A stretch of DNA of 64,000 nt, taken from the NCBI RefSeq assembly GCF_003984625.1, contig NZ_RWKH01000025.1, forward strand, positions 1 to 64,000. The letters run 5' to 3'. Below the pieces are notes generated by a model that was not told where the DNA came from, did no database searches, and saw only the letters and a program-made list of their open reading frames with translations. Positions 9,532-27,104 of the stretch are shown one piece after another; within the stretch, counting starts at the first letter, position 1; each line of letters starts with the position of its first letter. Both the position numbers and the translations under genes were made by a program. Origin of the DNA: Variovorax sp. DXTD-1 (GTDB lineage Bacteria > Pseudomonadota > Gammaproteobacteria > Burkholderiales > Burkholderiaceae_C).

Positions 9532-12500
9532 ATGCCCAAGCTCAACTTTCTCCGCCCTCGCACCCACCGGTTTGCCCTGGAGAGCCGGCAGCTCTTCGAC
9601 GGTGCCGCCTTCGTCGAAGCTGCGGCCCATGCGGATTCGGCGCCCGCCGATGCGCACCATGCACCCGCGGCGGAATCGCCCGCGCCCGCGCCCGCGCCCG
9701 CGCCGGCCCAGCCTGCGCGTGAGTCCATGGCCGAGCGGGCCAGCGCCGAGCCCGCGCAGCCGGCGGCCGCGTCAGCGCCCCACGAGGTGTATGTCGTGGA
9801 CCAGAACATTGCCAACTGGCAGCAGCTCGCCGCGGCGGTGCCGCAAGGGGCCCAATTGATCGTGCTGGACTCCGGCTCTTCCGGCGTTCAGCAGCTCGCC
9901 GTCGCGCTCAGCGGCCAGACCGGCATTACGGCATTGCACATCCTGAGCCACGGCAGCACGGGCGAAATCACGCTGGGGAACGAACAGGTCGACACGGCCT
10001 CTCTCGGCGGCTCGGCGGACGCCTGGCGCGCCATCGGCGCGAGCCTGAGCGCGGATGCCGACATCCTGCTCTACGGCTGCGACGTGGCGGCCGACGGCGC
10101 CCAGTTCTCGCAAGCACTCGCCAGCCTGACCGGCGCCGACGTGGCCTCGTCCACCGACGCCACCGGTGCCACGGCGCGCGGGGCGGACTGGGCGCTCGAA
10201 TCCGCCACCGGCGCCATCGAGACGCGCAGCTTCGCCGCCGCCGATTTCGACGGCCTGATGGCCGCGCCGACGGTGGCGACCACCGCCACCCGCCTGACCG
10301 TGGCGGAGCCGAGCGACCTCAACCAGGCGGGTGCGGACCGCGCCACCCTGAGCGGCTGGACCATCACCGACGACGGTTCGGGCAACGTGACGGTCACCGT
10401 GGTCGTGGAAAACCCGTCCGTGGGCACGCTGTCCTCGGCCAGCACCACCGGCGTGAGCGCCATTGCCGGTGGCTTCAGCTTCACGGGCAGCGTGGCGAAC
10501 GCGAATGCCTGGGTGAACCAGCTGGTGTTCACCTCGGCCGACGTCGAACTCGGCACCACGGCCGCCAACACGCGCATCCTCGTGAACGTCACCGATTCCG
10601 AGTCGCCGGCGCTGAACGCGAGCCGCGCCCTCGACGTGACGGTCACCCCTTCGAACGACCCGGTGATCGTCGCCGACGCCACGCAGGCCGTCGCCGAAAT
10701 CGGCAGCACCACGATCACGCTCGCGACGCTGAATGCGATCGACCCCGAGGTGGCGCACGGCACCCAGGAACCAAGCCAGATCGTGTACGGGCTCACGGCC
10801 GCTCCGGTCCACGGCTACCTGACGGTCGGCGGCACGCGCCTGGGCATCGGCAGCGTGTTCACGCAGCAGGACGTGATCGATGGCCGGGTGGTCTACGTCC
10901 ACACGGCCACGGGCGCCAACCAGAACACGCAGGACAGCTTCGCCGTGCAGGTCAACGACGGCGCGACGCTGTCGAACCGCTCCGACACGGCCACCATCAC
11001 GCTGAACGTCACACCCCAGAACCAGGCACCGACCGTGAGCGGCTCGGGCAACATCCTCGAAGGCCAGCCGGCCAATGCGCTCGACAGCGGCGGCAATCCC
11101 GCTTCGGTGGTCGGTAACTTCATCGTGGCGCAGGGCGGCGGCGATGACGATGCATCGGCACTCACGGTGAGGCTGACCAGCCTGCCCACCGACGGAACCC
11201 TGTTCTTCGGCGGCGCGGTGACCATCGGCGGCGTCGCGCAGACGATCGCCAACCGGGCCGTGACACAGGCCGACATCGACGCGGGCTTCGTCTTCGCCTA
11301 CGCCGACCGCGGCAACCTGACCTATGGCAACAACGGCAACCGCGACGCCAACCCGGCAACCGGCTATCCGTTCGACGACGGCTTCGGCGTCGAGATCGCC
11401 GACGCCGGCGGCGGCGCCGGTTCCGGCGCGGCACTGACCGCCAGCACGACCATCGAGCTGACCATCCGGCCGACCAACGACGATCCGGCCCTGGTGCCTG
11501 CCAGCACCCTTGAGGCCACCGTCACTGCCGCGGGCAACGTCAACGGCCCCTACATGGTGACACTGACTGCAGCCATGCTGAATGTGTCGGACGTCGACTC
11601 GAGCGACAACCGCCTGACCATCGCGGTGGTTTCGCAAGCCGGCATGAACCAGGGCCGCCTGCTGCTGAACGGACGGGAGCTGCCGAACGGCGGCACCTTC
11701 ACGGTGGCCGACATCAAGGCCGGCCGCGTGCAGTATGTGCAGCAGCTCGGGGCCAACGCGGGCGACATCGACCAGTTCCAGTTCCAGGTCCGCGACAACA
11801 CCACGAGCGTGCGCTGGAACGCGGACGGCACGCCGATCCAGCGCGACGGCGGCCAATACGACGACGGCGGAACAACGGGCGACTACAGCGACGACACCCT
11901 GCGGACCTTCAACTTCACGATCAACCTCGCGGAAACGCCCGCGGGCAACGGCGGTGCGCTGGTTCCGCTGGACAACACGGCCACGCATGCCGACTCCAGC
12001 TATGCCGGCACCAATACCGCCGGCAACTCGCGCGGCAACCTCAGCGAAGGGGGGACCATCGTGCTGTCGGGCACCGGTGCCGACTTCAGTGCCACGCCCG
12101 GGCTGAGCTATACGGTCGAGGGCGTCGACCCCCAGCAGGTGGTCTACACCGTGCTGGGCTTCAGCGGCGGCAGCGACGGCGAATGGAACGGCGTGCTGCA
12201 GCGCTTCGATGCGGCGAGCAACAGCTGGGTCGACCTGGGCGTCTTCGACACCTTCACGCAGGCCGACCTCAACGCCAACCGGGTCCGCTTCGTGCACGAC
12301 GGCGACAGCGAAGACTTCGAATCGAGCGTGCAGCTGTCGGCGTCGGCCGGCGTGCTGGTCAGCGACGGCAACGGCGGCGTGCAGGCGGACTCCTGGGTCA
12401 CGAGCTTCAGCTTCTACGCGACGCCGGTCAACGATGCGCCCGTCACCACCGGCTCCTCCAATACGGTCATCCCCGAAGGCAGCACGGCCTACATCACGAC

Positions 12501-15500
12501 CGGCCAGATCCAGATCAGCGACCCGGACGATGCGGTCAGCGAGGGCTACCTGGAAGGCTCCGCCACGGCGCCGGGCGGCGGCGACAACTACGCCTTCAAC
12601 AACGCCCCGAGCGGCAACGACGCGCTGCGGTTCCAGGTGGTATCGCTCCCGCCGGGCGGCACGCTGGAGTATTTCAACGGCACCAGCTGGGTTGCCGTCA
12701 CCACCGCCCAGCTGATCAATGCGTCGTTGATCACCGGTTCGGCCGGCACCACCGGCCTGCGCTTCGTGAGCGACGGCTCGGAGCTGCGCAGCACGAGCTT
12801 CGACGTGGTCGCGGTCGACCGCTGGGGCGCGACCTCGAACACCGCGACCGTGACGATCCAGATCACCAACGTCAACGATGCACCGCAGATCGCCGCCGAC
12901 CCGACGCAGACCGATCCGGAGCCCTCGTCCAACAACGAGCCGCTGACCGTGGCCGAGGGCGGCTACGCGCAGATCACGACGGCCATGCTCTCGGCCTTCG
13001 ATCCCGACAGCACCACCACGCAGGTGCAGTACACCATCACCACGGCCGCGGCGCGGGGCAGCATCGCTTATTCGACCGATGGCGTCACGTTCCTGCGGCT
13101 GGGCGCCGGTTCCGCTTTCACAGAAGCCGACGTGCGTGCGGGCCGCATCTACTACCTGCACGGCGGCACTGAATCGAACGGCGCCGTCTACCCAGGGTCG
13201 CCGACCGATTCCTTCCGCTTCAGCCTCGGCGACGGCGACAAGGAGCAACAGAACAACCAGTTCTGGATCTACGTCACGCCGGCCAACGATGCGCCTGTGG
13301 TGAGCGGGCCCACGGAACCGATTCCGGTCGACAGCGCCACCGGCGCCAACAACCCGGTGCCGGGCTTCAGCGTGGCCGATCCCGACATGGATACGCCGCA
13401 GGCCGGGGAAACCGACTTCGTGCAGGTCACGGTGCGGCTGCTCGACGCCAATGGCAATGCCTTCACTGCAGGCGACTATGCGGGCGTGACCATCGGCGCG
13501 GCCGGCACTGCCACGATCGACACCGACAAGAACGGCGCCGGCGACTACCTGACGCTGCGCGGCACGCGCGCCGAAATCAACGCGGCGCTGGCTACGCTGA
13601 CCGTGACCTTCAACACCGACCGCGACGTGGCCTACCAGGTCCAGGTCATCGCCGACGACCGGCTGCGCGACGAGGCGAGCGGCGCCCTGGAAACGGGCGC
13701 CAACGGCGGCCCGGTGAACGAATCCGATCCGGCCGGCAGCGCCGGCATCGCGATCCCGGCCACCGAATACGACTGGTACAGCGCGACGGTACCGACCACG
13801 GGCGCCATCACCGGCAACATGTCGGCCGCCTCGGTGCGCATCTTCGCCTCGAGCGAAAACGACCCGGGCGTACTGCAGGCCCCGCCCTCGGCCAACGTGG
13901 TCGAAGACCAGGCGAGCTACATCGGCGGCGGCTTCGTCGTGAGCGATCCCGAATCCGCGGCCTTCGATACACCGATCACGGTGACTCTCTCGGTACCGAG
14001 CGGCACGCTCGGCATCGGCGGGGCCGGCGCGCAGGGCAGCTTCACGCCGGGCGGCGGCCAGGCCGTCACGATCACCGGCGACAACACCGGCACGCTGGTC
14101 CTCACCGGCCGGGCGAGCGACATCGAGGCGCTGCTCAACAGCGGCGCCTCAACCGGCCTGACCTACCGCAGCGCAGCCAACGTCAACCACGACACCAACG
14201 GCGGCGCCGGCGGCGACGTCACGCTCACGGTCTCCTTCGACGATGCGGGTTCGCGCATCGGCGACGACACCGGCAGCGGCAGCGTCGCGAACAACCCGGC
14301 CAACGTGACGATGGCGCTGACGATCGCGCCGGTGAACGACGCGCCGACAGTCACGCTCAATGGCGCCACGCCGAGTACGCCCCTCGTGCTGACCGGCGGC
14401 GCCACCCCGACGGCGGTGCCCGGCTTCGTGGTCGGCGACGTCGACGTCACTGGCGACATCGACAACGGTTCGGACTCCGACGTCACCGACGGCGAAACCG
14501 ACTTCCTGCAGGTCACGATCCGCATCACCGATGCGGCCGGCGTCCCCTTGGCCGCAAGCGCCTACAGCGGCACGAGCAGCATCACGATCGAGTCGAGCAA
14601 CGCAGGCTCGGGTGTCGTGATCGACCCGACCTTCGACGGCACCGACAGCGCGCTCGTCATCAGCGGCACGCGAGCCCAGGTGCAGGCCTATCTCGACGGC
14701 CTGCGCGTCGCGCTGACCGGCGGCCTCGCCAACGGCGACCAGACCTACCGTGTCGAAGTCATCGTCGACGACCGTGTACGCGACGGCGGCGGCAGCGTCA
14801 CCGGCGCCAACGGCGGCCAGAACAACAACGCGGGCAACGGCACCATCGTGCCGCCGGCCACGCCGATCGATCCCTATGCGGCCACGCCGGGCGGACTCAC
14901 GAGCAACGTGGCTTCCACCTATCGCACGCTGTTCCCCTCGTCGATCAACGACCCGGCGCACATCGCGGCCGGCAACCTCGCCGTCGGCGAAGGCGGCGGC
15001 AGCGTCACGATCACGGGCATCACCGTGACCGACCAGGACGCGCTGGAGACCAGCGTCCTGACCGCCACGGTGTCGGTGCCCGCGGGCTTCACGATCACGG
15101 CCATCGGCGCGGGCAGCGGCGGCAACGCCGCGATCGCGGGCGACGGCCGCTCGGTCACGATCACGGGCACGCTGGCCGAGATCAACAGCCGCATCAACAC
15201 CATCGCGGTGCAGCTGCCCGACGCACCGGGCGACGCCACGCGCTCGGACTGGAACGGCGCCTTCGACGTGATCGTCGTGGTCGACGACGAGGGCAACACG
15301 GGCGGCCGTCCTGCCACCTTGGCGGGGGGCGACAACAACACGACCGGCACCTTCCAGTACCAGGACGGCATTGCAGCCGACCTCATCACCACGCGCACCT
15401 TCAGCTTCACCGTCAATCCGCTCAACGATGCGCCGAACGTCGTCAACGGCAACACCGAGACCCTCGCGGCTGTGAACGAGGACGTGGGCACCTCGGCGGC

Positions 15501-18500
15501 CGGCGCCACGGTCGGTGCGCTGTTCAGCGGCCATTTCGCCGACGCGGTCGACAGCATCGACAACACCAACAGTGGCAGCGGCGGCAGCGCATCCGACAGC
15601 TTCTGGGGCGTGGCCATCACCGGCCTCGCGCTCGATCCCGCGCAGGGCACGTGGCAGTACTCGCTCGACGGATCGACCTGGACCGCGGTCGGCGCGCGCA
15701 GCGACGCGAATGCGCTGGTGCTCGCCTCGAGCGCGCAGCTGCGCTTCGTGCCGGCAGCCAACTTCCACGGCACGCCGAATGCGCTAACGGTGCGCCTGGT
15801 CGAAACAGATGCCAACAGCGACAGCGCCACGACCGACCCGGTCTCCGGCGCGGTCGTGAACGTGTCCGGCGCCGGCAATGGCGGCACGACCGTCTACAGC
15901 GCCACCACGGTGGTGCTGTCGACCAGCGTGGCCAACGTGAACGACCGGCCGACCGCGGCCGATGCCGTCCTCACCACCGGCATCGAAGACCAGCAAGGCC
16001 AACCCGCACCCGCCGCCACCGCTGCCAGCCTGTTCGGCGCCGGCTACGGCGACGCCACGGACGACCAGCGCGCGATCACCGGCGGAGCCAATGCGTCGAC
16101 CACGTTCGGCGGTATCGCGATCGTTGGCAACGCTGCGACCGCGGCCCAGGGCACCTGGCAGTACTCGACCGACGGCACGACCTGGACGAACGTGCCCACC
16201 GGTGCTTCCGACAGCGATGCGCTCCTGCTCGCGCCCGATGCGCAATTGCGCTTCGTGCCGGCCGCAAACTACAACGGCGCACCGGGCAGCCTGATCGTGC
16301 GCATATCCGACGCGCCGGTGAGCACCAGCACCGGCGCGGACATCAGCGCCACCACCGGTGCCCAGACCAGCCAGTGGTCCCTCACGCGCACGCTCTCGAC
16401 CACCGTGGTACCGCGCAACGATGCGCCGGCGCTCACCGGAACGACCGGTGCAACCGGCATCGAGAACGGCCAGACCGGCAGCGGCACCAGCATTCCACCG
16501 GTGGCGCTGCTCACCGGCGGCGGCGTGGCCGACCTCGACCTCGCGACCACGCCGGGCCTGGCCACCGGCACTTTCGGCGCCGGCCGCATCACCGTGAGCC
16601 TCGACGGCTACCAGCCCGGCGATGTGCTGTCGGTCGATCCGGCCGCGCTGCCTGCGGGCGTCACGGTGTCGGGCGGCAACGGCGCGCCGTTGATCGTGCA
16701 GTTCGTCGCCGGCACCACGGTGGCCGAGGTGCAGGCGGTGCTCGATGGGCTGCGCTACAGCAGCACGAGCGACAACCCGACCAACTACGGCGCCGACCCC
16801 GACCGCGTCTACACCATCGTCATCAACGACGGCAACAACACGCAGGCCGGAGGCGATGCGGGCGGACCCGCGCTCGACAGCAACGTGCTGACCGGAACGC
16901 TCGCGATCGCGGCCACGAACGATGCGCCGACGGCCAACGACGACACCCACAGCATCACCGAAGACACGGTCTCGGTCGGCAGCAATGTCATTGCGGGCCG
17001 CGTCGGCACCACAGGCCAAGGCGATACCGACCCCGACAACACCGTGCTGACCGTGACCGGCCTGCGCACGGGCGCCGAAACCGGCAGCGGGACCACGGGC
17101 AGCGTGGGCGCGGCGCTGGCGGGCACCTACGGCAGCGTGGTGCTCAATGCCGACGGCAGCTACACCTACACGCTCGACAACACCAACCCGCGCGTACAGG
17201 CGCTGACGGCTGGCGAGACGCTGGTCGAGGTCTATACCTACACCATCTCCGATGGCGCCGGCGGCACCGACACGGCCCAGCTCACCATCACGATCACCGG
17301 CGCCGCGAACAACGGCCCGGCCGACGACCTGCCTGCCATCGTGGTGAACGATGCGAACGGGGCCGCCACCGGCGAGCTCAGCGTCGACGAGGCCGGCCTC
17401 ACGAGCGCCGGCGACACCCGCGAGACGGCCGGCAGCACCTTCGCCATCAGCGCGGCGGACGGCCTGGCCTCGATCACGGTCAACGGCACCTCGTTCACGC
17501 TCGCGCAGCTGCAGGCCGCCACGCCCGGCGCGCCGCTGACCATCGCCACCGCCGACGGCGTGCTCAACATCACCGGCTTCACCCCGACCAGCACGGTGGG
17601 CAGCCTCACGACCGCCGGCACGGTGAGCTACAGCTACACGCTCGCGCAGCAGCAGGACCACACCGGCGGAGAGGTCACCGATCCGTTCGCGCTGACCGTG
17701 ACCGACCGCGACGGCGACGTCGCGAACGGCACGCTCACGGTGCTGATCGTCGACGACGTGCCGGTGGCGGTCAACGACACCAACAGCATCGGCGAAGACG
17801 CGGCACCGAACACCGTCAGCGGCGACCTGAAAACCGGCCCTACCGGCGATACCGATGGTGCCGACAACGGCAACGGTGTCCCCGTCTCCGAAGTGAAGTT
17901 CAACGGCACGACAGGCACGGTGGGTCTTCCGCTCGCAACGGCCTACGGCAGCATCGTCGTCAACGCGAACGGAACCTATACCTACACGCTCGACAACGAC
18001 AACGCCGCCGTCAATGCCCTGAAGGACGGCGAGACGCTGACCGAAACGGTGAACTACACCATCACCGATGCCGACGGCGACGCTTCCTCCGCCACGCTCA
18101 CGATCACCATCCATGGCCGCACCGACGTGGCCGGCGGACCGTCGATCGTGGCGGTCGACGGCAACGGCGCCGCCGCGGGCCAAACCGAGGTGCACGAGAG
18201 CGGCCTGACCGACGGCGCCGGCGGCACCGACCCGCGCGAAACCAGCAACGGCACCATCGCCATCGAGGCGGCCGACGGACTGACGTCGGTCACGGTCGGC
18301 GGCACTGCGCTGACGGTGGCGCAGCTGCAGGCGCTCGGCACCACGCCGGTCACCATCGACACCGGCGAGGGCACGCTGGTGCTCACGGGCTTCACGGCGA
18401 CCAGCTCGGTCGGCGGCGTGCCCACGGCCGGTACGCTGAGCTACACCTACACGCTCAAGAACCCGATCGACCAGCCCGGCGCGAGCGAGAGCTTCGATCC

Positions 18501-20397
18501 GGTCGCGCTGCAGGTCAACGACGCGGGCGGCGGCTCGAGCACCGGCACGCTGCTGGTGCGCATCGTCGACGACGTGCCGGTGGCGGTGAACGACACGGCC
18601 ATCATCACCGAGGATGCGGCCCCCAACACCGTGAGCGGCGCCGTCAACGCCAACGACACGAACGGCGCCGACGACGCCAATGGCGTGCCGGTCACCGGCG
18701 TGAGCTTCGGCGGCACGGCCGGCAGCCTGGGCTCGCCGCTGGCCATGGTCTACGGCAGCATCGTCGTGAACGCGGACGGCAGCTACACCTACACGCTCGA
18801 CAACACCAACCCCGCGGTGCAGCGCCTGGTGCCCGGCGAGACGCTGACCGACACGGCCAGCTACACCATCACCGATGCCGACGGCGATACCTCGACGGCC
18901 ACCATCACCATCACGATCGGCGGCGCCAACGACGGCGTGGTGCTCGAGCTGACCGACGGCAACGGCCCCGACGGCACCGGCCATGCCACCGTCTCCGAGC
19001 GCGGGCTGGGCGACGGCAGCGACCCGAGCGAGACGACCACCGGCCGCTTCGTGATCCGCACGCCCGACGGGCTCGGCAGCATCGACGTGGGCGGCACGAC
19101 CGTGACGCCGGCGCAGTTGGCGAACCTCGGTACCACGCCGGTCACCATCGTCACCGACAAGGGCACCATCACGCTGACCGGCTGCGACCCGGCAACGGGC
19201 GCCGTCAGCTACAGCTACACGCTGAGCCAGCGCCAGCCGCATGGCGGCGGCGAGGTGACGGACGACATTGCCGTGACCGTACGCGACCGCGACGGCGACA
19301 GCACCACGGGCACCCTGCGCGTGCTGGTGATCGACGACGTACCCACCGCACGCGACGACGCGGCTTCGGTCGGTACCACGCGGCCCGACGCCACCTCGGT
19401 GGGCGGCAACCTGTTCGGGCCGAACGGCCGCGGACCCGGCGACGTCGGCGACCGCATCGGTGCCGATTTCGTGGCCGAGCCCGTGACCGGTTTCTCCTTC
19501 GAAGGGCGGCCCGGCGTCATCGGCGGCGCGCCGCTGGCCGGCGCCTACGGCACGCTGCAGCTGAACGCGGACGGCAGCTACACCTATGCGGTTGACGGCA
19601 ACAACTCGCGCGTGTCCTCGCTCGGCGACGGCCAGACGCTGACCGAGGTGTTCAGCTACACCATCACCGATGCCGACGGCAGCACGAGCACGGCGCAACT
19701 GGTGGTGACGATTCGCGGCGCTTCGCAGTTCCGTCCGCTCACGAGTGACCAAGTCCTCCCGAACGAGCTCCTGTACCGGCAGCGCTACATCGCGCAGGCC
19801 ATGGTGCCGACACTGTTCGTGGAGTTCTCGGTGCAAGAGTCGCAACGGATGAGCCAGGATGCGCTGGCGTCGATCGCTTCGCGCGTGGCGGGCGGCGTCT
19901 ACAGCTCGATCGACAGGAACCGGGTCTTCGGCATCGGGCAGGAGATGAGCAACACCGAGCATGTGAGCCGCGACGGCATCGGATCGTCGGCGCGTCTGCT
20001 GGAGGAAATCCGGCAGGTGCTGGCACTGCGCGGGCTGGATGCCGGGCTGCCGGACGGCGGCAACGCACTGTTCGGCGATTTCCCCGGCTTTGCCGCACCC
20101 GCAGAAGCACCCGCCGAAGCGCCGGCGCAGCGCCAGCAACCGGCTGGCGAGCGCATCGTGGTGCCCGGCGCGGCAACCTCGGCCGCGCCGCTCGCCGAGC
20201 GTGCGCAGCATGCGGAAGCCATCCGGCTGCCTGCCGCAGCCGGCGGCACCGGGCATTCCGCGGAGCCGGCGCAGGCCGCGCGCTCCTTCTCCAGCCGGCT
20301 GGCTGCGAGCGCAGGCGAACGCGGCACGGTGCGCGACGTTGTGCGCGTGCAGCAGCAGGAAGCGGTGCGCGTCAAAGTGCCCGCAGCCCAGTCATGA
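9532..20397 (+). CDS. Giant repetitive surface/secreted protein: DUF4347, Ig/cadherin-like, T1SS-143 and VCBS repeats
   Basis: From the ATG at 9532 the product has 3,621 residues. Residues 1-20 contain LESRQLFDGAAF, a variant of the LEPR-XLL signature of giant exported proteins, followed by an Ala/Pro linker. DUF4347 spans about 85-244, with HILSHGSTG (His140) and DILLYGCDVA (Cys183). About a dozen Ig/cadherin-like modules follow, joined by NDAP-type linkers. Then come T1SS-143 and VCBS modules (ADGSYTYTLD, YTITDADGD) to about residue 3400. The last 220 residues are non-repetitive and Ala/Pro-rich. There are no RTX nonapeptides. A TolC-like gene overlaps its stop, so it is probably the substrate of the downstream export genes and acts as an adhesin or cell-surface/matrix protein. 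An in-frame GTG at 9304 would add 76 residues unlike any family member and is less likely. Start certainty is moderate, since no strong ribosome-binding site is visible. Confidence 0.85.
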   Translation: MPKLNFLRPRTHRFALESRQLFDGAAFVEAAAHADSAPADAHHAPAAESPAPAPAPAPAQPARESMAERASAEPAQPAAASAPHEVYVVDQNIANWQQLAAAVPQGAQLIVLDSGSSGVQQLAVALSGQTGITALHILSHGSTGEITLGNEQVDTASLGGSADAWRAIGASLSADADILLYGCDVAADGAQFSQALASLTGADVASSTDATGATARGADWALESATGAIETRSFAAADFDGLMAAPTVATTATRLTVAEPSDLNQAGADRATLSGWTITDDGSGNVTVTVVVENPSVGTLSSASTTGVSAIAGGFSFTGSVANANAWVNQLVFTSADVELGTTAANTRILVNVTDSESPALNASRALDVTVTPSNDPVIVADATQAVAEIGSTTITLATLNAIDPEVAHGTQEPSQIVYGLTAAPVHGYLTVGGTRLGIGSVFTQQDVIDGRVVYVHTATGANQNTQDSFAVQVNDGATLSNRSDTATITLNVTPQNQAPTVSGSGNILEGQPANALDSGGNPASVVGNFIVAQGGGDDDASALTVRLTSLPTDGTLFFGGAVTIGGVAQTIANRAVTQADIDAGFVFAYADRGNLTYGNNGNRDANPATGYPFDDGFGVEIADAGGGAGSGAALTASTTIELTIRPTNDDPALVPASTLEATVTAAGNVNGPYMVTLTAAMLNVSDVDSSDNRLTIAVVSQAGMNQGRLLLNGRELPNGGTFTVADIKAGRVQYVQQLGANAGDIDQFQFQVRDNTTSVRWNADGTPIQRDGGQYDDGGTTGDYSDDTLRTFNFTINLAETPAGNGGALVPLDNTATHADSSYAGTNTAGNSRGNLSEGGTIVLSGTGADFSATPGLSYTVEGVDPQQVVYTVLGFSGGSDGEWNGVLQRFDAASNSWVDLGVFDTFTQADLNANRVRFVHDGDSEDFESSVQLSASAGVLVSDGNGGVQADSWVTSFSFYATPVNDAPVTTGSSNTVIPEGSTAYITTGQIQISDPDDAVSEGYLEGSATAPGGGDNYAFNNAPSGNDALRFQVVSLPPGGTLEYFNGTSWVAVTTAQLINASLITGSAGTTGLRFVSDGSELRSTSFDVVAVDRWGATSNTATVTIQITNVNDAPQIAADPTQTDPEPSSNNEPLTVAEGGYAQITTAMLSAFDPDSTTTQVQYTITTAAARGSIAYSTDGVTFLRLGAGSAFTEADVRAGRIYYLHGGTESNGAVYPGSPTDSFRFSLGDGDKEQQNNQFWIYVTPANDAPVVSGPTEPIPVDSATGANNPVPGFSVADPDMDTPQAGETDFVQVTVRLLDANGNAFTAGDYAGVTIGAAGTATIDTDKNGAGDYLTLRGTRAEINAALATLTVTFNTDRDVAYQVQVIADDRLRDEASGALETGANGGPVNESDPAGSAGIAIPATEYDWYSATVPTTGAITGNMSAASVRIFASSENDPGVLQAPPSANVVEDQASYIGGGFVVSDPESAAFDTPITVTLSVPSGTLGIGGAGAQGSFTPGGGQAVTITGDNTGTLVLTGRASDIEALLNSGASTGLTYRSAANVNHDTNGGAGGDVTLTVSFDDAGSRIGDDTGSGSVANNPANVTMALTIAPVNDAPTVTLNGATPSTPLVLTGGATPTAVPGFVVGDVDVTGDIDNGSDSDVTDGETDFLQVTIRITDAAGVPLAASAYSGTSSITIESSNAGSGVVIDPTFDGTDSALVISGTRAQVQAYLDGLRVALTGGLANGDQTYRVEVIVDDRVRDGGGSVTGANGGQNNNAGNGTIVPPATPIDPYAATPGGLTSNVASTYRTLFPSSINDPAHIAAGNLAVGEGGGSVTITGITVTDQDALETSVLTATVSVPAGFTITAIGAGSGGNAAIAGDGRSVTITGTLAEINSRINTIAVQLPDAPGDATRSDWNGAFDVIVVVDDEGNTGGRPATLAGGDNNTTGTFQYQDGIAADLITTRTFSFTVNPLNDAPNVVNGNTETLAAVNEDVGTSAAGATVGALFSGHFADAVDSIDNTNSGSGGSASDSFWGVAITGLALDPAQGTWQYSLDGSTWTAVGARSDANALVLASSAQLRFVPAANFHGTPNALTVRLVETDANSDSATTDPVSGAVVNVSGAGNGGTTVYSATTVVLSTSVANVNDRPTAADAVLTTGIEDQQGQPAPAATAASLFGAGYGDATDDQRAITGGANASTTFGGIAIVGNAATAAQGTWQYSTDGTTWTNVPTGASDSDALLLAPDAQLRFVPAANYNGAPGSLIVRISDAPVSTSTGADISATTGAQTSQWSLTRTLSTTVVPRNDAPALTGTTGATGIENGQTGSGTSIPPVALLTGGGVADLDLATTPGLATGTFGAGRITVSLDGYQPGDVLSVDPAALPAGVTVSGGNGAPLIVQFVAGTTVAEVQAVLDGLRYSSTSDNPTNYGADPDRVYTIVINDGNNTQAGGDAGGPALDSNVLTGTLAIAATNDAPTANDDTHSITEDTVSVGSNVIAGRVGTTGQGDTDPDNTVLTVTGLRTGAETGSGTTGSVGAALAGTYGSVVLNADGSYTYTLDNTNPRVQALTAGETLVEVYTYTISDGAGGTDTAQLTITITGAANNGPADDLPAIVVNDANGAATGELSVDEAGLTSAGDTRETAGSTFAISAADGLASITVNGTSFTLAQLQAATPGAPLTIATADGVLNITGFTPTSTVGSLTTAGTVSYSYTLAQQQDHTGGEVTDPFALTVTDRDGDVANGTLTVLIVDDVPVAVNDTNSIGEDAAPNTVSGDLKTGPTGDTDGADNGNGVPVSEVKFNGTTGTVGLPLATAYGSIVVNANGTYTYTLDNDNAAVNALKDGETLTETVNYTITDADGDASSATLTITIHGRTDVAGGPSIVAVDGNGAAAGQTEVHESGLTDGAGGTDPRETSNGTIAIEAADGLTSVTVGGTALTVAQLQALGTTPVTIDTGEGTLVLTGFTATSSVGGVPTAGTLSYTYTLKNPIDQPGASESFDPVALQVNDAGGGSSTGTLLVRIVDDVPVAVNDTAIITEDAAPNTVSGAVNANDTNGADDANGVPVTGVSFGGTAGSLGSPLAMVYGSIVVNADGSYTYTLDNTNPAVQRLVPGETLTDTASYTITDADGDTSTATITITIGGANDGVVLELTDGNGPDGTGHATVSERGLGDGSDPSETTTGRFVIRTPDGLGSIDVGGTTVTPAQLANLGTTPVTIVTDKGTITLTGCDPATGAVSYSYTLSQRQPHGGGEVTDDIAVTVRDRDGDSTTGTLRVLVIDDVPTARDDAASVGTTRPDATSVGGNLFGPNGRGPGDVGDRIGADFVAEPVTGFSFEGRPGVIGGAPLAGAYGTLQLNADGSYTYAVDGNNSRVSSLGDGQTLTEVFSYTITDADGSTSTAQLVVTIRGASQFRPLTSDQVLPNELLYRQRYIAQAMVPTLFVEFSVQESQRMSQDALASIASRVAGGVYSSIDRNRVFGIGQEMSNTEHVSRDGIGSSARLLEEIRQVLALRGLDAGLPDGGNALFGDFPGFAAPAEAPAEAPAQRQQPAGERIVVPGAATSAAPLAERAQHAEAIRLPAAAGGTGHSAEPAQAARSFSSRLAASAGERGTVRDVVRVQQQEAVRVKVPAAQS
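16925..19725 (+). repeat. Tandem ~270-residue supramodules (T1SS-143 + VCBS) within the giant gene
   Basis: The VCBS motif recurs with its SYTYTLD-type core encoded near 17158, 17971, 18778 and 19579, a spacing of about 801-813 nt. Between successive copies lies a T1SS-143-type module beginning with an SVDEAGL-like sequence and ending in IVDDVPVAVND. The units are similar at the DNA level, so the tract could expand or contract by recombination and could mis-assemble. Confidence 0.8.
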
Positions 20398-20450
20398 AAC
20401 CGGCCACCGCACGGCCCGCCATCGAACCACCCTTCAGAACCGACAACCCA

Positions 20451-22352
20451 ATGACCGAAACACTCAACGTGAAGAAATCGAAACTCCCCGGCGCCCCCAC
20501 TTGGGCGGCCGCGGCCATTGCCGTGCTGCTGGCGGGTTGCAGCGTCAATCCCGTGCAGGTCACGCCGGAGGAAGTCGCGCAGCGCGTGCAGAGCGACCAG
20601 GCCCAGATGTACAAGGGCCAGGCGCCGGTCTCCGCGCCCATCAGCTACTCCGATGCGCTGGCGCGTGCGCTCAAGTACAACCTGGACTACCGCCTCAAGC
20701 TGATGGAGAGCGCGCTCGCACGCGGCCTGCTCGACGTGTCGGCCACCGACATGCTGCCCAAGCTGGTGGCCGACGCGGGCTACAACGACCGCAGCAACGA
20801 TTCCGGCGGCACCAGCATCGGCATTGAAGACCGCGTGGTGAGCCTGCGCCCCTCGACCTCCGAGCAACGCTCGCACTACTACGGCCGCGCTACGCTGTCG
20901 TGGAACGCGCTCGATTTCGGCCTGGCCTACTTCCGCGCCAAGCAGGCGGCCGACGAAGTCAACATCGCCGAGGAGCGCCGCCGCAAGATTTTGCAAAACA
21001 TCGTGCAGGACGTGCGCAACGCCTACTGGCGCGCGCTGGGCGCGCAACGCCTGCTCGCCGAGGCCGACCAGCTCGCCGTCCGCATCGAAGACGCGCTGGG
21101 CAAGTCGCGCGAGGCCGAGCGTGCCGGCGTGCTGCCGCCGACGCAAGGCCTGGCCTACCAGCGCGCCCTGCTCGACGCGATGTCGCTGGTCAACGCCAAG
21201 CGCCAGGAAATGCAGTTCGCCAAGCGCGAACTCGCGGCACTCATGAGCCTGCCGCCCGGCACCCAGTTCACGCTGGTGGACAGCCCGATGGGCCAGCACG
21301 CGCCCGCCACGCTGGACATCGACAAGCTCGAACGCACCGCGCTGGAAAACCGCCCCGAGCTGCGCGAGGAAGACTACAAGGCGCGCGTGGGCGTCAATGA
21401 AACCAGGAAGCAGATCGCGGCCCTGTTCCCGAGCCTGAACCTCTACGGCGGCCCGCGCTACAACTCCAACGACCTGCTCTACAACAACAGCTGGACCGAC
21501 GTCGGCGTGAGCGTCTCGATGGACCTGTTCCGCCTGGCGGCCATTCCGGCGATCAACCGCACCAACGAAGCGCGCCTGCGCAACGACGAGGCGCGGCGCC
21601 TGGCGCTTTCGATGGCCGTGATCACGCAGGTGCGCGTGTCGGCCGAGCGCTACAAGCTCGCGCTGGTCGACCAGGAACTCGCGGCCGAGTCGAGCCGCGT
21701 CGACCAGCGCCTGGCGAGCGTCTCGCGCGCCGGCAGCAGCAACCGGCTGGAAAGCGAACTGGAGTCCCTCCGCACCGATTCGCGCGCACTCGTTTCGCGC
21801 TTCCAGCTCTCCACCGCTTACGCCGCAACGCAGGCCTCGTATGCCCGCGTGCTGAACTCGGTGGGCATCGACCTGCTGCCCGACACCGTGACCGGCACCG
21901 ACATTCCGACCCTGGCCAGCGCCATCGACAAGAGCCTGCTCGAAGGCGAGAAGGTCGTGTTCGTCCGTACGGCCGCCGTGCAGACGCCCAGCCGCCCGAT
22001 CGCGGTGCGCGTGCAAAACCTCCCCACCGGCGTGAACGAGGCTGCGGTGCGCAGCGCCGTCGAGCGCATCGTCTCGCGCAACGAACTGCAGACCGCGCAG
22101 GGCGGCGACGCACTGGTGCTGACGCTGGCATTCGAGCGCATGGAATCGCGCGCCACGACGCGTGCGCAGTGGCGCGTCACCGTGGCCGAGCCCGGTGGCC
22201 GCCGGCTGCTGTCGCAGAGCTACGTGAGCTTCTTGCCGAATGCCCCGAGCGAGAGCGCACTCGGCGCCTTCGCGGAGGCGGCCACGCTGTCGGTCATTTC
22301 CGATCTGCGCCGCCTTGCAAGCACCAGCGCTTCAGTCGCGCAAAAGCCGTGA
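20451..22352 (+). CDS. TolC-like outer-membrane efflux lipoprotein
   Basis: The 633-residue protein has a lipoprotein signal (KKSK, hydrophobic stretch, LLAGC with Cys30). A TolC/OEP-type domain follows, rich in long Ala/Glu/Arg helices (for example YWRALGAQRLLAEADQLAVR), in two halves. The final 130 residues (from about 505) are an extra domain not found in standard TolC. It should form the outer-membrane channel for the giant protein. An in-frame ATG at 20394 overlaps the previous stop (ATGA) and would favour coupling, but would put the lipobox Cys at residue 49. I prefer 20451; neither start has a clear ribosome-binding site. Confidence 0.85.
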   Translation: MTETLNVKKSKLPGAPTWAAAAIAVLLAGCSVNPVQVTPEEVAQRVQSDQAQMYKGQAPVSAPISYSDALARALKYNLDYRLKLMESALARGLLDVSATDMLPKLVADAGYNDRSNDSGGTSIGIEDRVVSLRPSTSEQRSHYYGRATLSWNALDFGLAYFRAKQAADEVNIAEERRRKILQNIVQDVRNAYWRALGAQRLLAEADQLAVRIEDALGKSREAERAGVLPPTQGLAYQRALLDAMSLVNAKRQEMQFAKRELAALMSLPPGTQFTLVDSPMGQHAPATLDIDKLERTALENRPELREEDYKARVGVNETRKQIAALFPSLNLYGGPRYNSNDLLYNNSWTDVGVSVSMDLFRLAAIPAINRTNEARLRNDEARRLALSMAVITQVRVSAERYKLALVDQELAAESSRVDQRLASVSRAGSSNRLESELESLRTDSRALVSRFQLSTAYAATQASYARVLNSVGIDLLPDTVTGTDIPTLASAIDKSLLEGEKVVFVRTAAVQTPSRPIAVRVQNLPTGVNEAAVRSAVERIVSRNELQTAQGGDALVLTLAFERMESRATTRAQWRVTVAEPGGRRLLSQSYVSFLPNAPSESALGAFAEAATLSVISDLRRLASTSASVAQKP

Positions 22353-23137
22353 AGCGGCCCGCCAGAGCATTCGGCCTGCTGGTCGCTTCGATCTGCGGCC
22401 TCGGCATCGGCCTGCAGCAAGCCGCCGCCCAGACGGCACCGCCCCGCGCGCCGGCCCAGAGCACGGCCAGCGCCGCGGCGCCGGTGCGCTTTCTCGTGGT
22501 GGCCTCGCAAGAGAGCATTCTCTCGGCCTCGACCGCCGGGCGCTTCGCCAAGGTGCAGGCGAACCTGGGCGACACGGTTCGCGCCGGACAGCTGCTGGCC
22601 GCCTTCGACTGCGCCGAGTTCCAGGCCCGCCGCGATGCGGCGCGCGCCGAGGCCGAATCGGCCCGCGTGCAGTACGAAGCCAAGTTGAAGCTGCAAGGCC
22701 TGCAGTCGGCGGCGGAGGTCGAGGTCGAACTCGCCGCCGCCAACGTCAACAAGGCCCAGAGCCAGATCCGCATCTTCGATGCGCAGCTCGGCCAGTGCGC
22801 TTTCGTGGCGCCCTTTGCAGGCAAAGTCGCGCGCGTGCACGTGAAGGTGGGGCAAGGCGTGAACCCCGGCGCGCCGGTGGTCGAACTGGTGGGCAACGGC
22901 CCGCTCAAGGCGCGCATGAACGTGCCTTCGCAATGGCTCGCATGGCTCAAGGTGGGCGACCGCCTCCAGGGCACGGTGGACGAAACCGCCAGCGCCTGCG
23001 ACCTGAAGGTGACGCGCGTCGCCGGCCGCGTCGATGCGGTGAGCCAGACGGTCGAGATCGAGACCGAACTCGCCGGCGGCACCGCCCAGGTGCTGCCCGG
23101 CATGAGCGGCCAGATCCGCGCGCCGGCCGGACGGTGA
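22349..23137 (+). CDS. Periplasmic adaptor (membrane-fusion) protein, short HlyD/RND type
   Basis: The 262-residue protein begins with a signal peptide (RAFGLLVASICGLGIGLQQAAAQ). It continues with a split lipoyl/barrel-sandwich domain (GRFAKVQANLGDTVRAGQLLA and FVAPFAGKVARVHVKVGQGV). A helical hairpin lies between the halves (about 85-140), followed by a beta-barrel region. It should bridge the inner-membrane parts to the TolC-like channel. The GTG at 22349 overlaps the preceding TGA (GTGA); the frame is open upstream but only as antisense-like noise over the TolC gene. At 262 residues it is shorter than canonical HlyD. Confidence 0.85.
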   Translation: MKRPARAFGLLVASICGLGIGLQQAAAQTAPPRAPAQSTASAAAPVRFLVVASQESILSASTAGRFAKVQANLGDTVRAGQLLAAFDCAEFQARRDAARAEAESARVQYEAKLKLQGLQSAAEVEVELAAANVNKAQSQIRIFDAQLGQCAFVAPFAGKVARVHVKVGQGVNPGAPVVELVGNGPLKARMNVPSQWLAWLKVGDRLQGTVDETASACDLKVTRVAGRVDAVSQTVEIETELAGGTAQVLPGMSGQIRAPAGR

Positions 23138-23168: not shown

Positions 23169-24521
23169 GTGACCGACCTGGCTTTTCACGCGCTCGCCGC
23201 GAAGGTGCGCGCGGCCACCCGCGCGGCCGACCTGGCCTTTGTCATCTGCAACGAGACCCATGCGCTCGCCGGCTACCGGCAGGCGGCGCTGGTCGGCTAC
23301 TTCGGCGCGCGCCGCACCCGGCTGGTCGGCCATTCGGGGCTGGCCGACGTCGAGGCCGATTCGCCCTATGCGCTCTGGCTGGCCGAGCTGGCCGACCACC
23401 TGCGCCCGCGGTTCGATGCGCTGCCGCCGGCCGCGCGCGTGCTCTCGCTGGCGCCCTCGATGCTGCCCCCGGCGCTGGCCGCGTCCTGGGCCGACTGGCT
23501 GCCCGACCATGTCTGGGTGCTGCCGCTCATCGGCCCCGACGGCCAGACCCGCGCCGTGCTGTTCCTCGCACGCGAGAACCCGTGGCCCACCGAATTCGGC
23601 GCCGATGCGCCCGAGTACCTGCTGCTGCAGGCCGCGGCAACCTACGGCCACGCCTGGTGGGCGCTGACCGGCCGCCGGCGCTCGCTCGGCACGCTCTGGC
23701 AGGGCCTCTGGTCCCGAAGGGCGCTGCGCTGGTCGCTGTTCCTGCTGCCGCTGGTGCTGCTGGCGCCGGTGCGCGAATACGCGCTGGTGCAGGCCGAGGT
23801 CATCTCGCTGCGCAGCCAGGTGATCGCCTCGCCGCGCGATGGCGTCATCAGGCGCATCACCGTGCAGCCCAATACGCCGGTCGAGGCGGACCAGGTGATT
23901 GCCGAACTCGACGACACCACGCTCTTCAACCGCCTGGCGGTGGCCGAGGCGGCGTTGGCAAGCGCGCGGCTCGAACTGCACCAGGCGTCGCAGCGCGCGA
24001 TCGAATCGCAGACCGCCAAGGCCGAGCTCAACCTGGCCGAAGGCAAGCTGCGCGAGCGCGAGGTCGACGTGGCATCGCTGCAGCGCGAGGTGGCCCAGCT
24101 CTCGATCAAGGCGCCGGCCAAGGGCGTGTTCGTTTATTCCGACCCCGACGACTGGGCCGGCCGCCCGGTGCAGACCGGCGAACGCGTTGGCCTCCTGGCC
24201 GACCCCGCTTCGCTGGGCGTGCAGGCCTGGGCGCCGGTCAGCGAGGCCGTCAACCTGGCGCCGGGCGCGCCGATGACGCTGTTCCTGCGCGTGGCGCCGC
24301 TCGATCCCGTCTCCGCGCGGCTCGACTATGCGGGCTACCAGGCGGTCGAGGCCCCCAACGGCGTGGCGAGCTACCAATTGCGCGGCCATATCGACGAAAA
24401 GACGCAGGTCGCCCGCATCGGGCTGCGCGGCACCGCGCGCGTGTCGGGCGACTGGACCGTGCTGGGCTACCTGATGTTCCGGCGCCCCTTCGCCGCGGTG
24501 CGGGAGTGGTGCGGATGCTGA
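23169..24521 (+). CDS. HlyD-family adaptor with cytoplasmic GAF-like domain
   Basis: The 450-residue protein has three parts. Residues 1-175 resemble a GAF domain (YRQAALVGYFG, PYALWLAELADHL, WVLPLIGPDGQTRAVLFLAREN). One membrane segment follows at about 187-205 (LRWSLFLLPLVLLAPVREYA). The rest is a HlyD-type adaptor with a lipoyl half (VIASPRDGVIRRITVQPNTPVEADQ), a coiled-coil hairpin (about 255-310) and a second half (LSIKAPAKGVFVY). The start is GTG at 23169, 31 nt after the previous gene; the stop overlaps the next gene by 7 nt. The GAF-like part would lie in the cytosol and could sense a ligand. That role is inference. Confidence 0.83.
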   Translation: MTDLAFHALAAKVRAATRAADLAFVICNETHALAGYRQAALVGYFGARRTRLVGHSGLADVEADSPYALWLAELADHLRPRFDALPPAARVLSLAPSMLPPALAASWADWLPDHVWVLPLIGPDGQTRAVLFLARENPWPTEFGADAPEYLLLQAAATYGHAWWALTGRRRSLGTLWQGLWSRRALRWSLFLLPLVLLAPVREYALVQAEVISLRSQVIASPRDGVIRRITVQPNTPVEADQVIAELDDTTLFNRLAVAEAALASARLELHQASQRAIESQTAKAELNLAEGKLREREVDVASLQREVAQLSIKAPAKGVFVYSDPDDWAGRPVQTGERVGLLADPASLGVQAWAPVSEAVNLAPGAPMTLFLRVAPLDPVSARLDYAGYQAVEAPNGVASYQLRGHIDEKTQVARIGLRGTARVSGDWTVLGYLMFRRPFAAVREWCGC

Positions 24522-26608
24522 GCCCGGCGGCCGCAGGGCCCGCACCGTGGCCCGACTTGCGCGAGGAACTGCAGATCCATCCGACCGGTGCGAACCGCGA
24601 CGGATCGCCGGCCTGGCACATCTGCGACCCGGTACGCAATCTGTTCTTCCGCATCGGCTGGCTCGAGTTCGAATTCCTGCAGCGCTGGCGGCTCGCCGAT
24701 GCGCAGCGCATCGCGAGCGAGGTCGCCGAGGCCACCACGCTCGCGCCCGCGCCCGACGACGTGGCCGAGTTCCAGGGCTTTCTCGCCCGCCACCAGCTGC
24801 TGCGCGCGGCGCGCCAGAAACCGCCGATGCCCGCCTGGCGCTGGCTGCTCAACAACTACCTGTTCGTGCGCATCCCGCTGGTGCGGCCCGCGCTCTGGCT
24901 GGAGCGGCTCCTGCCCTGGGTCAGCTGGCTGTTCACCCGCTGGTTCCTCGGGCTCACGGCGTTCGCTGCGCTCGCAGGCCTGGTGCTCGCGGCGCGCCAG
25001 TGGGACACCGTCGAGGCCAATCTGCGCGGGGCGCTGAGCTGGGAAGGCGTGCTCGGCTTTGCCGGCGCGCTGATCGTTTCCAAGCTGCTGCACGAGCTCG
25101 GCCATGCGCTCGTCTCGACACGGCACGGCGTGCGCGTGGGCCACATGGGCGTCGCGCTGCTGGTGATGTGGCCCATGGCCTATACCGACACGGGCGAGAG
25201 CTGGAAGCTCGAGCGCTCGCGCCATCGCTTGGCCATCGCCTCGGCCGGCATCGCGTCCGAGCTGGTGCTGGCGGCGTGGTCCACCTTGCTGTGGGCCTTT
25301 CTGCCCGACGGTGACCTGCGCAATGCGCTGTTCTTTCTGGCGACCACGGCCTGGGTGCTGACGCTGCTGGTGAACGCCAGCCCTTTCATGCGCTTCGACG
25401 GCTACTACATGCTCACCGACGCGCTCGACTTCCCGGGCCTGCACGAACGCGCGGGGCTGCAGGCCAAGCGCTTCCTGCGGCGCTGGCTGCTCGGCCTCGA
25501 CGAGCCGCCGGCGGAAACGCTCTCGCCAGGCTTCCGGCGCTTTCTGGTCGCCTTTGCCTTCGCCACCTGGATCTACCGGCTGGTGCTGTTCATCGGCATT
25601 GCGGTCGTCGTGTACCACGCCTTCTTCAAGGCCCTGGGCGTTCTCCTGTTCTTCGTCGAGCTCGCGGTCTTCGTCGGCCGCCCCGTCGCCGCGGAGTTCC
25701 GGGTGTGGATGCAGCGCAGGGCCGAGATCCCGCACCGGCGCAAGATGGCCTGGCTGCTGGCGCTCGCCGCGATGGCGCTGGTGCTCTGGGTGCCCTGGCG
25801 TGCCGGCATCACCGCGCCGGGCGTGCTCAAGGCCGGCTCGGAGCAGCCCGTGTATTCCCCCTTCGCGGCCCGCGTGACGGCGGTGGACATCACCAACGGG
25901 CTCGACGTCGAGCCCGGACGCCCCTTGCTCACGCTCGATGCGCCCACCCAGGCGGGCGAGCGCGACAAGGCGCGTGCGCTGGCCCATGCCTACGCCCGCG
26001 CCGCGCGCGGTTCGCTCGGGCTGGCCGAGGGCCCGGCTGCGCAGCTGGCCGTGGCGGAGCAGCAGGCGAGCCGATGGGAGGCCGAGGGCCGCGCGCGCGA
26101 GGCGGAACTGCTCCGGCTGCGGCTCGTGGCTTCGCACAGCGGCGAAGTCCGCGACCTCGACCCGCTCGTGGGCCGGGACACATGGCTGGGCCCGTCGCAG
26201 CTCATCGCGATGGTGGTGGACGGTCGGCGGTGGCGCGTCGAGGCGCTGGTGCCGGAACACGACCGCCAGCGGCTGTCGCTCGACAGCGAAGCCACCGTGA
26301 TCGTGAAGGGGCGCACGCGCAAGCTGCAGGGGAAGGTGCGCGCCATCGACAGCAGCCCCGTCAAGCGGCTGCCGCACCTGCTGCTCGCGCAGGACCACGG
26401 CGGACCGATCGCGCTCAATCCCACCCGGCCCAAGACCGAACTGCGGCCGGCCGACGCCTGGTTCCGCGTGCTCGTGGAAGGGGAATCGGACACCCCCCTC
26501 GCGGCGGTGCGCGAGGTGAAGGTGCATTTCGAAGGTACCCGCGAGAGCATTGCCCACCACTGGACCGACAGTGCGCTGTCGGTGCTGATCCAGCAGGCGG
26601 GCTTCTAG
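24515..26608 (+). CDS. M50-type membrane metalloprotease fused to an adaptor domain
   Basis: The 697-residue protein starts at the ATG at 24515, overlapping the previous stop (ATGCTGA). Residues 10-105 resemble a PqqD/RRE winged-helix domain (WHICDPVRNLFFRIG...FLARHQLLRA). Residues 140-430 hold about eight membrane segments. The site-2-protease zinc motif HELGH is at 193-197 and NASPFMRFDGYYML at 287-300 (Asp295 as third ligand). After the last membrane segment comes a periplasmic lipoyl/HlyD-like part (PVYSPFAARVTAVDITNGLDVEPG). The metal ligands are intact, so it may be an active intramembrane protease, or use the fold for export. It is the last gene of the export operon. Confidence 0.85.
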   Translation: MLSPAAAGPAPWPDLREELQIHPTGANRDGSPAWHICDPVRNLFFRIGWLEFEFLQRWRLADAQRIASEVAEATTLAPAPDDVAEFQGFLARHQLLRAARQKPPMPAWRWLLNNYLFVRIPLVRPALWLERLLPWVSWLFTRWFLGLTAFAALAGLVLAARQWDTVEANLRGALSWEGVLGFAGALIVSKLLHELGHALVSTRHGVRVGHMGVALLVMWPMAYTDTGESWKLERSRHRLAIASAGIASELVLAAWSTLLWAFLPDGDLRNALFFLATTAWVLTLLVNASPFMRFDGYYMLTDALDFPGLHERAGLQAKRFLRRWLLGLDEPPAETLSPGFRRFLVAFAFATWIYRLVLFIGIAVVVYHAFFKALGVLLFFVELAVFVGRPVAAEFRVWMQRRAEIPHRRKMAWLLALAAMALVLWVPWRAGITAPGVLKAGSEQPVYSPFAARVTAVDITNGLDVEPGRPLLTLDAPTQAGERDKARALAHAYARAARGSLGLAEGPAAQLAVAEQQASRWEAEGRAREAELLRLRLVASHSGEVRDLDPLVGRDTWLGPSQLIAMVVDGRRWRVEALVPEHDRQRLSLDSEATVIVKGRTRKLQGKVRAIDSSPVKRLPHLLLAQDHGGPIALNPTRPKTELRPADAWFRVLVEGESDTPLAAVREVKVHFEGTRESIAHHWTDSALSVLIQQAGF

Positions 26609-26621: not shown

Positions 26622-27104
26622 TTACGTGGTGGCGCGCATCTGGTCGCGCAACTGCTTGATCTGGTCGTGGTTGCGCTGGGCGCCTTCCGCCTGCTGCTGG
26701 ATGATTGCGCGCACGTCGGCGGGCAGGTCTTCCTTCAGCGCCTTGCGGTAGCGCGCCACGGCGGCGTCTTCACCGCGCTCGCATTCCTCCAGCATCGAGA
26801 GCGCGCTGTTCGCGCCGACCGAACCCTTCACATGCACCCAGCCGCGATGCATGGCACCGCTCACGGTGCCGCCGTCGTCGGGCGAGCCGCCGAAGCGCCT
26901 GATGAGCTGAACCAGCTCGCCGGCCGCCTTGGCGCATTCCGCGGAGCGGTTCTGGAACACCTGCTTGAGTTGCGGAGAATCCACTTCCTCCGCGCAGGCC
27001 CGGAAACCGTATTCACCATCGCGCGTGTTCTCGAGCAGATCGTTCAGCACCTCGACAACGTCTCCGCTGTTCGCGGTTTCAGCAGTGTTCGTGTAGTTGG
27101 CCAT
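26622..27104 (-). CDS. PA2169-type four-helix-bundle protein (DUF2383, ferritin-like)
   Basis: The 160-residue protein consists of four predicted amphipathic helices, with the family features ENTRDGEYGFRACAEEV and LEECERGEDAAVARYRKAL (regular Glu/His-type positions as in ferritin-like bundles). PA2169-family proteins are often stress-associated and their reaction is unknown. The ATG at 27104 is preceded by AAGGAG; an upstream open extension lacks that support. It is convergent with the M50 gene, 13 nt away. Confidence 0.85.
   Translation of the reverse strand: MANYTNTAETANSGDVVEVLNDLLENTRDGEYGFRACAEEVDSPQLKQVFQNRSAECAKAAGELVQLIRRFGGSPDDGGTVSGAMHRGWVHVKGSVGANSALSMLEECERGEDAAVARYRKALKEDLPADVRAIIQQQAEGAQRNHDQIKQLRDQMRATT

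Follow-up and report, generated by a model that had tools for sequence, protein, structure and literature searches.

A Divergent RRE-Type Domain on an Export-Type M50–HlyD Protein of Variovorax sp. DXTD-1 and Its Possible Link to the N-Terminal Tags of Giant Proteins

The DNA considered here, referred to as the window, comprises 64,000 nucleotides of Variovorax sp. DXTD-1 (contig NZ_RWKH01000025.1 of assembly GCF_003984625.1, positions 1 to 64,000 of the forward strand). It encodes at 24515..26608, on the + strand, a protein of 697 amino acids in which a small N-terminal domain precedes a site-2 (M50) protease and a HlyD-type adaptor. This domain is almost certainly a divergent winged helix of the PqqD type, that is, a RiPP recognition element (RRE; RiPP, ribosomally synthesized and post-translationally modified peptide). 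The established role of RREs is to read leader peptides in RiPP pathways; the one described here belongs to a candidate export receptor, below simply called the receptor, encoded next to a giant surface-type protein. What the computation gives directly is the fold of the domain, the architecture of the protein, its intact protease motifs and seven membrane helices, its place in a five-gene module, and the nesting of genomes with strongly tagged giants within those that hold the receptor.

Fold and Family of the N-Terminal Domain

A first-pass annotation of the window had placed a PqqD/RRE-like domain at 24545-24829, with a β-strand/three-helix pattern. With the gene starting at ATG 24515, which overlaps the stop of the preceding gene, this region corresponds to residues 11-105 of 697, and the three stretches that had been quoted from it, WHICDPVRNLFFRIG, EFEFLQRW and VAEFQGFLARHQLLRA, are indeed found in frame where they had been located; the domain itself covers residues ~13-97 (24551..24805, + strand). 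The order of the secondary structure elements is borne out by the AlphaFold (AF2) model of the full-length protein (mean predicted local distance difference test, pLDDT, 87.9; predicted template modelling score, pTM, 0.69), which has strands at residues 20-24, 33-38 and 43-47 and helices at 49-56, 63-73 and 80-92; modelled alone, the domain has the same β-β-β-α-α-α arrangement, with a pLDDT of 92.9 and a pTM of 0.83.

Regarding its relatives of known structure, a Foldseek search of the PDB with the domain alone returned RRE proteins in all of rows 1-9 (E 0.009-0.14, probability 0.94-1.00), among them TbiB1 with its leader, a sactipeptide synthase (which we take to be CteB) and a lasso B1 protein with its leader; TbiB1 with its leader peptide accounted for four of the top five rows. 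VIA-align gave its best scores with lasso RREs solved with leaders, namely 6jx3 (Z 11.0, root-mean-square deviation, rmsd, 2.5, 82 residues aligned), 5v1v (Z 10.1, rmsd 2.5, 82 residues) and 5v1u (Z 10.0, rmsd 2.7, 80 residues). The RRE-bearing TigE, sactipeptide synthase, TruD, heterocyclase and MccB followed with Z 6.4-7.9, and PqqD itself (3g2b) with Z 5.7 (rmsd 2.1, 56 residues aligned); SuiB and the McbBCD complex were also present, the whole of this lower group lying at Z ~4-8.

Profile methods were applied to an alignment of 49 proteins. Starting from 79 related loci, 17 were left out because they had no in-frame start codon, a length outside 640-760 amino acids or a sequence judged by eye to be broken; the remaining 62 were thinned at 88% identity to 48, to which the window protein was added. 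The domain is present in all 49. The Pfam PqqD model, PF05402, is matched at E ≤ 1 by 10 of these relatives (best 4.1e-8) and at E ≤ 5 by six of ten N-terminal fragments, between residues 30 and 105, one of them (L108, 5.6e-9) being above the cut-off; in a search of 60 genomes of the order, two M50 paralogues, G029:C18 and G016:C2, carried above-cut-off PqqD domains N-terminally. NCBIfam scans of fragments pointed the same way, with the PQQ_PqqD, ScmD, WgkC, ApyI and lasso PqqD models each found in 4-7 of the 49 members and no PqqD-type model matched by the window domain.

As for the comparison of profiles proposed in the first-pass annotation, hhalign aligned the 49 rows with 20 PqqD-type proteins at E 6.3e-8 (probability 94.7), the score of 36.9 being well above the best of 150 column-shuffled controls (16.0). 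A set of 38 rows, from which nine planctomycete/Fibrobacter-type and two outlying gamma rows had been removed, matched the same proteins at E 2.8e-4 (probability 40.8), and in the control comparison it scored 21.2 (probability 18) vs a best control of 18.6, so that this subset is weak on its own. Searched against PDB sequences, the 49-row domain profile gave sub-threshold rows only, with PqqD 3g2b second (E 0.16).

Against the assignment stand the modest Foldseek E values of so small a domain (best 0.009, none ≤ 0.001 in the PDB search) and the absence of any PF05402 match in the window protein alone, even at E 10 (cut-off 23.4 bits), a model that a separate protein of the same genome reaches with 58.4 bits. 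In addition, the fold list is interspersed with non-RRE proteins (GdmN, Z 5.9-6.6; NO66, Z 4.9-5.3); since they appear below Z 8, only the VIA-align rows above this value carry weight, and rank, probability and Z were used jointly in assigning the fold. The fold is nevertheless taken as settled, because the top fold rows and the family-level matches agree; an absent profile match combined with a structure unlike a winged helix, the outcome that would have spoken against the domain, was not what was found, and the PqqD/RRE identity proposed at first is upheld by fold, family-level hidden Markov model matches and profile-profile comparison alike.

Architecture and Topology of the Receptor

The nearest named relatives of the whole protein are Variovorax and Xenophilus proteins, with identities of up to 89%. 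Its membrane part (residues 142-400, 24938..25714, + strand) contains the M50 protease, detected above the cut-off by Pfam (PF02163) and, below its cut-off, by the NCBIfam model daptide_HExxH. The motifs HELGH (residues 193-197, 25091-25105) and RFDGYY (25391-25408), the latter with D295, lie within it; HExxH and RFDGY, and with them H193, E194, H197 and D295, are invariant across the 49 rows, as expected of a site-2 protease, and because of this conservation the protease is probably active.

Behind the seventh membrane helix there is a HlyD/MacA-like adaptor domain (residues ~428-677, 25796..26545, + strand), with PF13437 (HlyD_3) above the cut-off at 41.9 bits and HlyD_D23 below it at 21.2 bits; in the full-length Foldseek search this part resembles the adaptors MacA, MexA and AcrA. 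That search was set aside as evidence on the RRE, about which it says nothing, being filled by HlyD matches. The hydropathy profile has eight peaks; seven are helices in the model, and the one at residues 205-223 is modelled as a hairpin of strands. With seven membrane crossings, the RRE at the N terminus and the HlyD domain at the C terminus face different sides of the membrane. HlyD domains act in the periplasm, and with an odd number of membrane helices the RRE is therefore assigned to the cytoplasm.

N-Terminal Tags of the Giant Proteins

The giant protein of the window (9532..20397, + strand, with ATG 9532 as its probable start) contains DUF4347, cadherin/VCBS and T1SS-143 family matches. 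Its relatives whose 5′ end could be reached, many other flanks stopping short, share one motif in the first ~150 codons, seen at 15 loci, at 19 loci and at 35 including the window in three successive collections. It takes the forms LALEQRFMFDGAA, LMELEQRIAFDAAGA, PLEKRLMLDAS, LEKRIVLDGAA and LALEPRxLFDGAA, and reads ALESRQLFDGAAF in the window giant, with the consensus LExR-h-h-[FL]-[DS]-[AG]. The tag proper of the window giant, LESRQLFDGAAF (9577..9612, + strand), is of the LFDGAA type and is the proposed ligand of the RRE.

A second variant is represented by the LEPR-XLL tag of NCBIfam (NF012209, LEPR-8K): the giant adjoining the paralogue G016:C2, one of the two with an above-cut-off PqqD domain, begins with ...EELEPRIMYSADF, which is this tag, and in most of the LEPR-XLL giants retrieved from the order the tag has a form like [RK]RxLFExLEPRxLLSAD. 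The two resemble each other in being LExR tags at the N terminus of giants, LEPR-XLL being found with a sister clade of the receptor; the window tag is a variant separate from the LEPR-XLL model. Several matches to LEPR-XLL, such as that in G458:C115 near 112865-112924, sit in very long open frames, which reach 19,427 codons.

The LFDGAA profile was built from 31 of the 35 tags; three were left out because the cut contained a stop upstream of the tag, and one because it nearly duplicated another. Its rows were picked by motif, so its invariant columns come in part from selection. Two giant-like frames were not counted as tag-bearing, L056 because it starts inside repeats and L087 because of masked letters. 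The giant of G098 (L149/L272, G098:C1 near 2439954) was at one point considered tagless; this was discarded when the tag was found, in another frame than the remaining coding sequence, a break due to a frameshift or an assembly error. A second LFDGAA match in the window genome (G000:C3, E 0.001), 122 residues into an apparent wrong-frame open reading frame (ORF) of 666 amino acids, was taken as chance.

The first-pass annotation had allowed for recognition of either end of the giant, and C-terminal motifs do exist. By eye, the C-terminal motif is [GA]xxSFSxQLxxAA in many window-type giants and WxxDFVxxLG or PWARDLAxRL in several LEPR-XLL giants. The RRE could then read such a C-terminal motif (SFSSRL in the window giant, 20284..20301, + strand), the N-terminal tag being read elsewhere, for example by the second HlyD protein of the module. 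This explanation would suit the C-terminal position of type I secretion signals, the T1SS-143 repeats that the window giant carries above the cut-off, and the recurrence of C-terminal motifs in both groups of giants. These motifs differ, however, between the two groups, which have the N-terminal tag in common; no C-terminal motif was seen in L098, L103 and L173 despite a clear N-terminal tag; and the best fold matches of the RRE were solved with leader peptides, which are N-terminal. A C-terminal ligand is thus rather improbable, and the N-terminal tag is the preferred one.

Distribution of Tags and Receptors

The pairing of tag and module is very likely genuine, as judged from two genome samples. 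In the order sample, LEPR-XLL was matched at E ≤ 1e-4 in 34 of 399 genomes, all 34 with the receptor, which overall is present in 73 of the 399; in the phylum sample the corresponding values were 33 of 398, 33 of 33 and 91 of 398. The two samples share one LEPR-positive genome (G049), and combined they give 66 of 66 genomes with a strong match that also hold the receptor. At the level of genera, all 17 LEPR genera fall within the 39 receptor genera (of 158).

Moreover, two clades of the receptor go largely with the two tag variants. Receptor scores split the order sample into 39 genomes with the window-type receptor and 41 with the other clade, eight having both and one (G159) being unclassified, these sets being lower bounds because two candidates per genome were scored. 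The LFDGAA profile was matched at E ≤ 1e-5 in 38 of the 39 window-type genomes, including 19 of the 20 from which the profile took no row, although these too are relatives of the genomes that contributed rows. By the same threshold it was matched in none of the 33 genomes with only the other clade (G193 reached 6.8e-4 and G322 0.008), and at E ≤ 0.01 in none of the 57 receptor-less genomes scored (of 326 in the order sample; for seven of the 57, the first 125 candidates were scored). Conversely, LEPR-XLL occurred in 34 of 41 other-clade genomes and in none of the 31 with the window type only. In the phylum sample, the LFDGAA tag was found at E ≤ 1e-3 in 51 of 58 receptor-positive, LEPR-negative genomes, two of the 51 (G000 and G093) having supplied rows to the profile, and in all a tag of one type or the other is present in 84 of the 91 genomes with the receptor.

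This covariation bears on the idea that the domain descends from an RRE but has lost peptide binding and serves purely to keep the complex assembled, for example by attaching to the second HlyD protein or to the protease. Winged helices are often docking modules, and the window domain is divergent enough to escape Pfam; furthermore, its positions conserved at ≥90% fall in strand 2 and the turn that follows, and in helices 1 and 3, with none in β3. Pure docking does not explain why tag variant and receptor clade vary together, and the domain has been retained in 49 of 49 proteins, so that a mere scaffold is unlikely and a peptide-binding domain is preferred.

Among the distant receptor genomes (L103-L114), L103 has the tag LEKRIVLDGAA next to its receptor and belongs to those negative for LEPR. 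A pattern search of the flanks of L105-L114 gave no LEPR giant. It should be noted that the planctomycete/Fibrobacter M50–HlyD proteins of L105-L114 have the clearest PqqD domain, and that several of their genomes have no LEPR match; these receptors may read another tag.

Proposed Function

By analogy with known RREs, the domain probably acts as the reader of the tag, and, with slightly less assurance, the receptor as a whole is likely to read the N-terminal tag of the giant and bring it to the protease and the HlyD/TolC channel. In such a mechanism, the cytoplasmic RRE would pick up the LExR tag (LESRQLFDGAAF in the window giant) at the N terminus of the giant, which would then pair with β3 as an additional strand, in the groove against helix 3, as in the RRE precedent. 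The N terminus would thereby be brought to the site-2 protease, which would probably remove the tag by cutting near it, although cleavage as such is no better than an even proposition. The HlyD part would then couple to the TolC channel, through which, we infer, the giant would exit.

A number of observations weigh against this proposal. The window giant does not match LEPR-XLL (NF012209) at E ≤ 1, and giants share C-terminal motifs as well (loci L036-L175 and L249-L266, by eye). Because the genomes are related, Fisher values overstate the evidence from co-distribution; in addition, what this evidence ties to the tag is the module and not the RRE alone, the second HlyD protein being present in 60 of 79 loci. 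The nesting also loosens with the threshold in the order sample: 39 of 40 genomes with LEPR at E ≤ 1e-3 hold the receptor, the exception being a frame of 23 amino acids, as do 46 of 49 at E ≤ 1e-2, and at the model's own cut-off at least 13 of 68 genomes have no receptor, with open frames of 23-651 amino acids; the weaker LEPR matches are noisy. Five of the 12 distant receptor genomes have a LEPR match at E ≤ 0.01 and seven have none; in the phylum sample, seven of the 58 receptor-positive, LEPR-negative genomes carry neither tag. As for the matching of clades, five of 33 LEPR genomes (G434, G449, G461, G484 and G568; 24-27 bits) are without a clear other-clade receptor, and G193 and G330, counted as having the other clade only, also hold a window-type-like fragment.

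On a broader and more tentative view, which may well prove wrong, LExR tags would serve as addresses in a widespread route of sorting and export, in which one receptor per tag variant reads, cuts and threads giants via TolC without a dedicated ABC (ATP-binding cassette) transporter, receptor clade and tag having changed together.

Gene Module and Known Systems

The module is ordered giant, TolC, HlyD, second HlyD and M50–HlyD, all on the + strand of the window. The giant is followed by a TolC-type outer membrane efflux protein (20394..22352, Pfam OEP), a HlyD/RND-type periplasmic adaptor (22349..23137, NCBIfam RND_mfp, probably starting at GTG 22349 in a GTGA overlap) and a second HlyD-type adaptor (23169..24521), whose N-terminal ~200 residues have no Pfam match and could be a sensor domain. 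By tblastn within the stretches fetched, many contigs ending early, all five genes were recognizable in 34 of the 79 related loci, which include β-, γ- and α-proteobacteria; the giant is divergently transcribed in rhizobia, and the other module genes are mostly unrecognizable in the planctomycete-type loci (L105-L114). Of the 29 ORFs scanned within the operon and beside it, 15 gave a family match.

The closest known arrangement is that of the daptides. According to the daptide report (PMC10036551), the class was defined by RREs with an N-terminal fusion to a site-2 protease, MpaP is described as an intramembrane peptidase that depends on an RRE to remove the leader, and the leader residues L(-7) and M(-4) are essential for a step that requires a separate RRE protein, MpaB; other M50 proteases of RiPP pathways are EpeP, TglG and TmoG, as listed in a review (PMC10885120). 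The best NCBIfam match of the window protein is in fact daptide_HExxH (NF041824; 1.6e-52, residues 56-386), with 178.9 bits vs a cut-off of 300. With MpaP/DapP it shares an RRE ahead of an M50 intramembrane protease and a short tag in the substrate; it differs in having a HlyD domain, in a presumed substrate of ~3,600 amino acids instead of a short peptide, and in the absence of modifying enzymes among the ORFs scanned at the module.

The occurrence of such fusions in daptides makes it conceivable that the module produces an unrecognized RiPP, its RRE binding the leader of a small precursor encoded nearby. This is highly unlikely: the cut-off of the daptide equivalog model is missed and no daptide gene was found among the ORFs scanned, no RiPP-modifying enzyme is present among the 29 ORFs covered, and the genes of the operon overlap or sit 31 bases apart, leaving no space for a precursor gene between the five genes (small ORFs upstream of the giant and downstream of the M50 gene were not searched). 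With no RiPP enzyme among the ORFs scanned and no room for a precursor between the operon genes, a RiPP pathway is not indicated.

Of the other known systems, PqqD, TbiB1, the sactipeptide synthase, LynD/TruD and MccB have the same three strands and three helices as the window domain, with Z up to 11.0, but they serve RiPP or PQQ (pyrroloquinoline quinone) biosynthesis, whereas the window RRE sits on an export-type receptor. The GlyGly-CTERM/rhombosortase and PEP-CTERM/exosortase systems (PMC3237569) are similar in that many substrates share a short terminal tag, which is co-distributed with a single membrane protein family; here, however, the tag sits at the N terminus and does not serve as a membrane anchor, and the proteolytic component belongs to the M50 metalloproteases and carries both a domain of peptide-binding type and an efflux adaptor. 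Type I secretion (HlyB/HlyD/TolC) likewise has HlyD-type adaptors, TolC and giant repeat-rich cargo with T1SS-143 repeats, but the 29 ORFs scanned at the module, to which the search for an ABC ATPase was confined, include none, and no Ca-binding RTX repeat family is among the Pfam matches of the giant. Regarding LEPR-XLL, one such giant is mentioned in a passage of PMC10868602; the titles and abstract beginnings of the literature matches listed describe no pairing of LEPR with an RRE–M50 protein, and the titles, abstract beginnings and passages among these matches describe no partner for the NCBI-curated tag.

As for the surroundings, trp genes (TrpC, TrpD and TrpE types) and a β-eliminating lyase lie upstream of the module (1319-7424, minus strand). 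Downstream of the M50–HlyD gene there are a PA2169-family four-helix-bundle protein (26622-27113), a response regulator, and type VI secretion genes (TssL-type, IcmF-type, TssA and the sheath large subunit, 30597-36824).

Significance

In conclusion, an RRE fold sits here on an export-type receptor beside a giant adhesin-like protein, and is co-distributed with an N-terminal tag. Because the exporter carries a domain of a peptide-reading type and the giants paired with it share this tag, the arrangement suggests an address-label system for the export of very large proteins. If this is true, a receptor for the LEPR-XLL tag would be named, the function of RREs would extend to the sorting of large proteins, and the route by which LEPR giants leave the cell would become a testable question.

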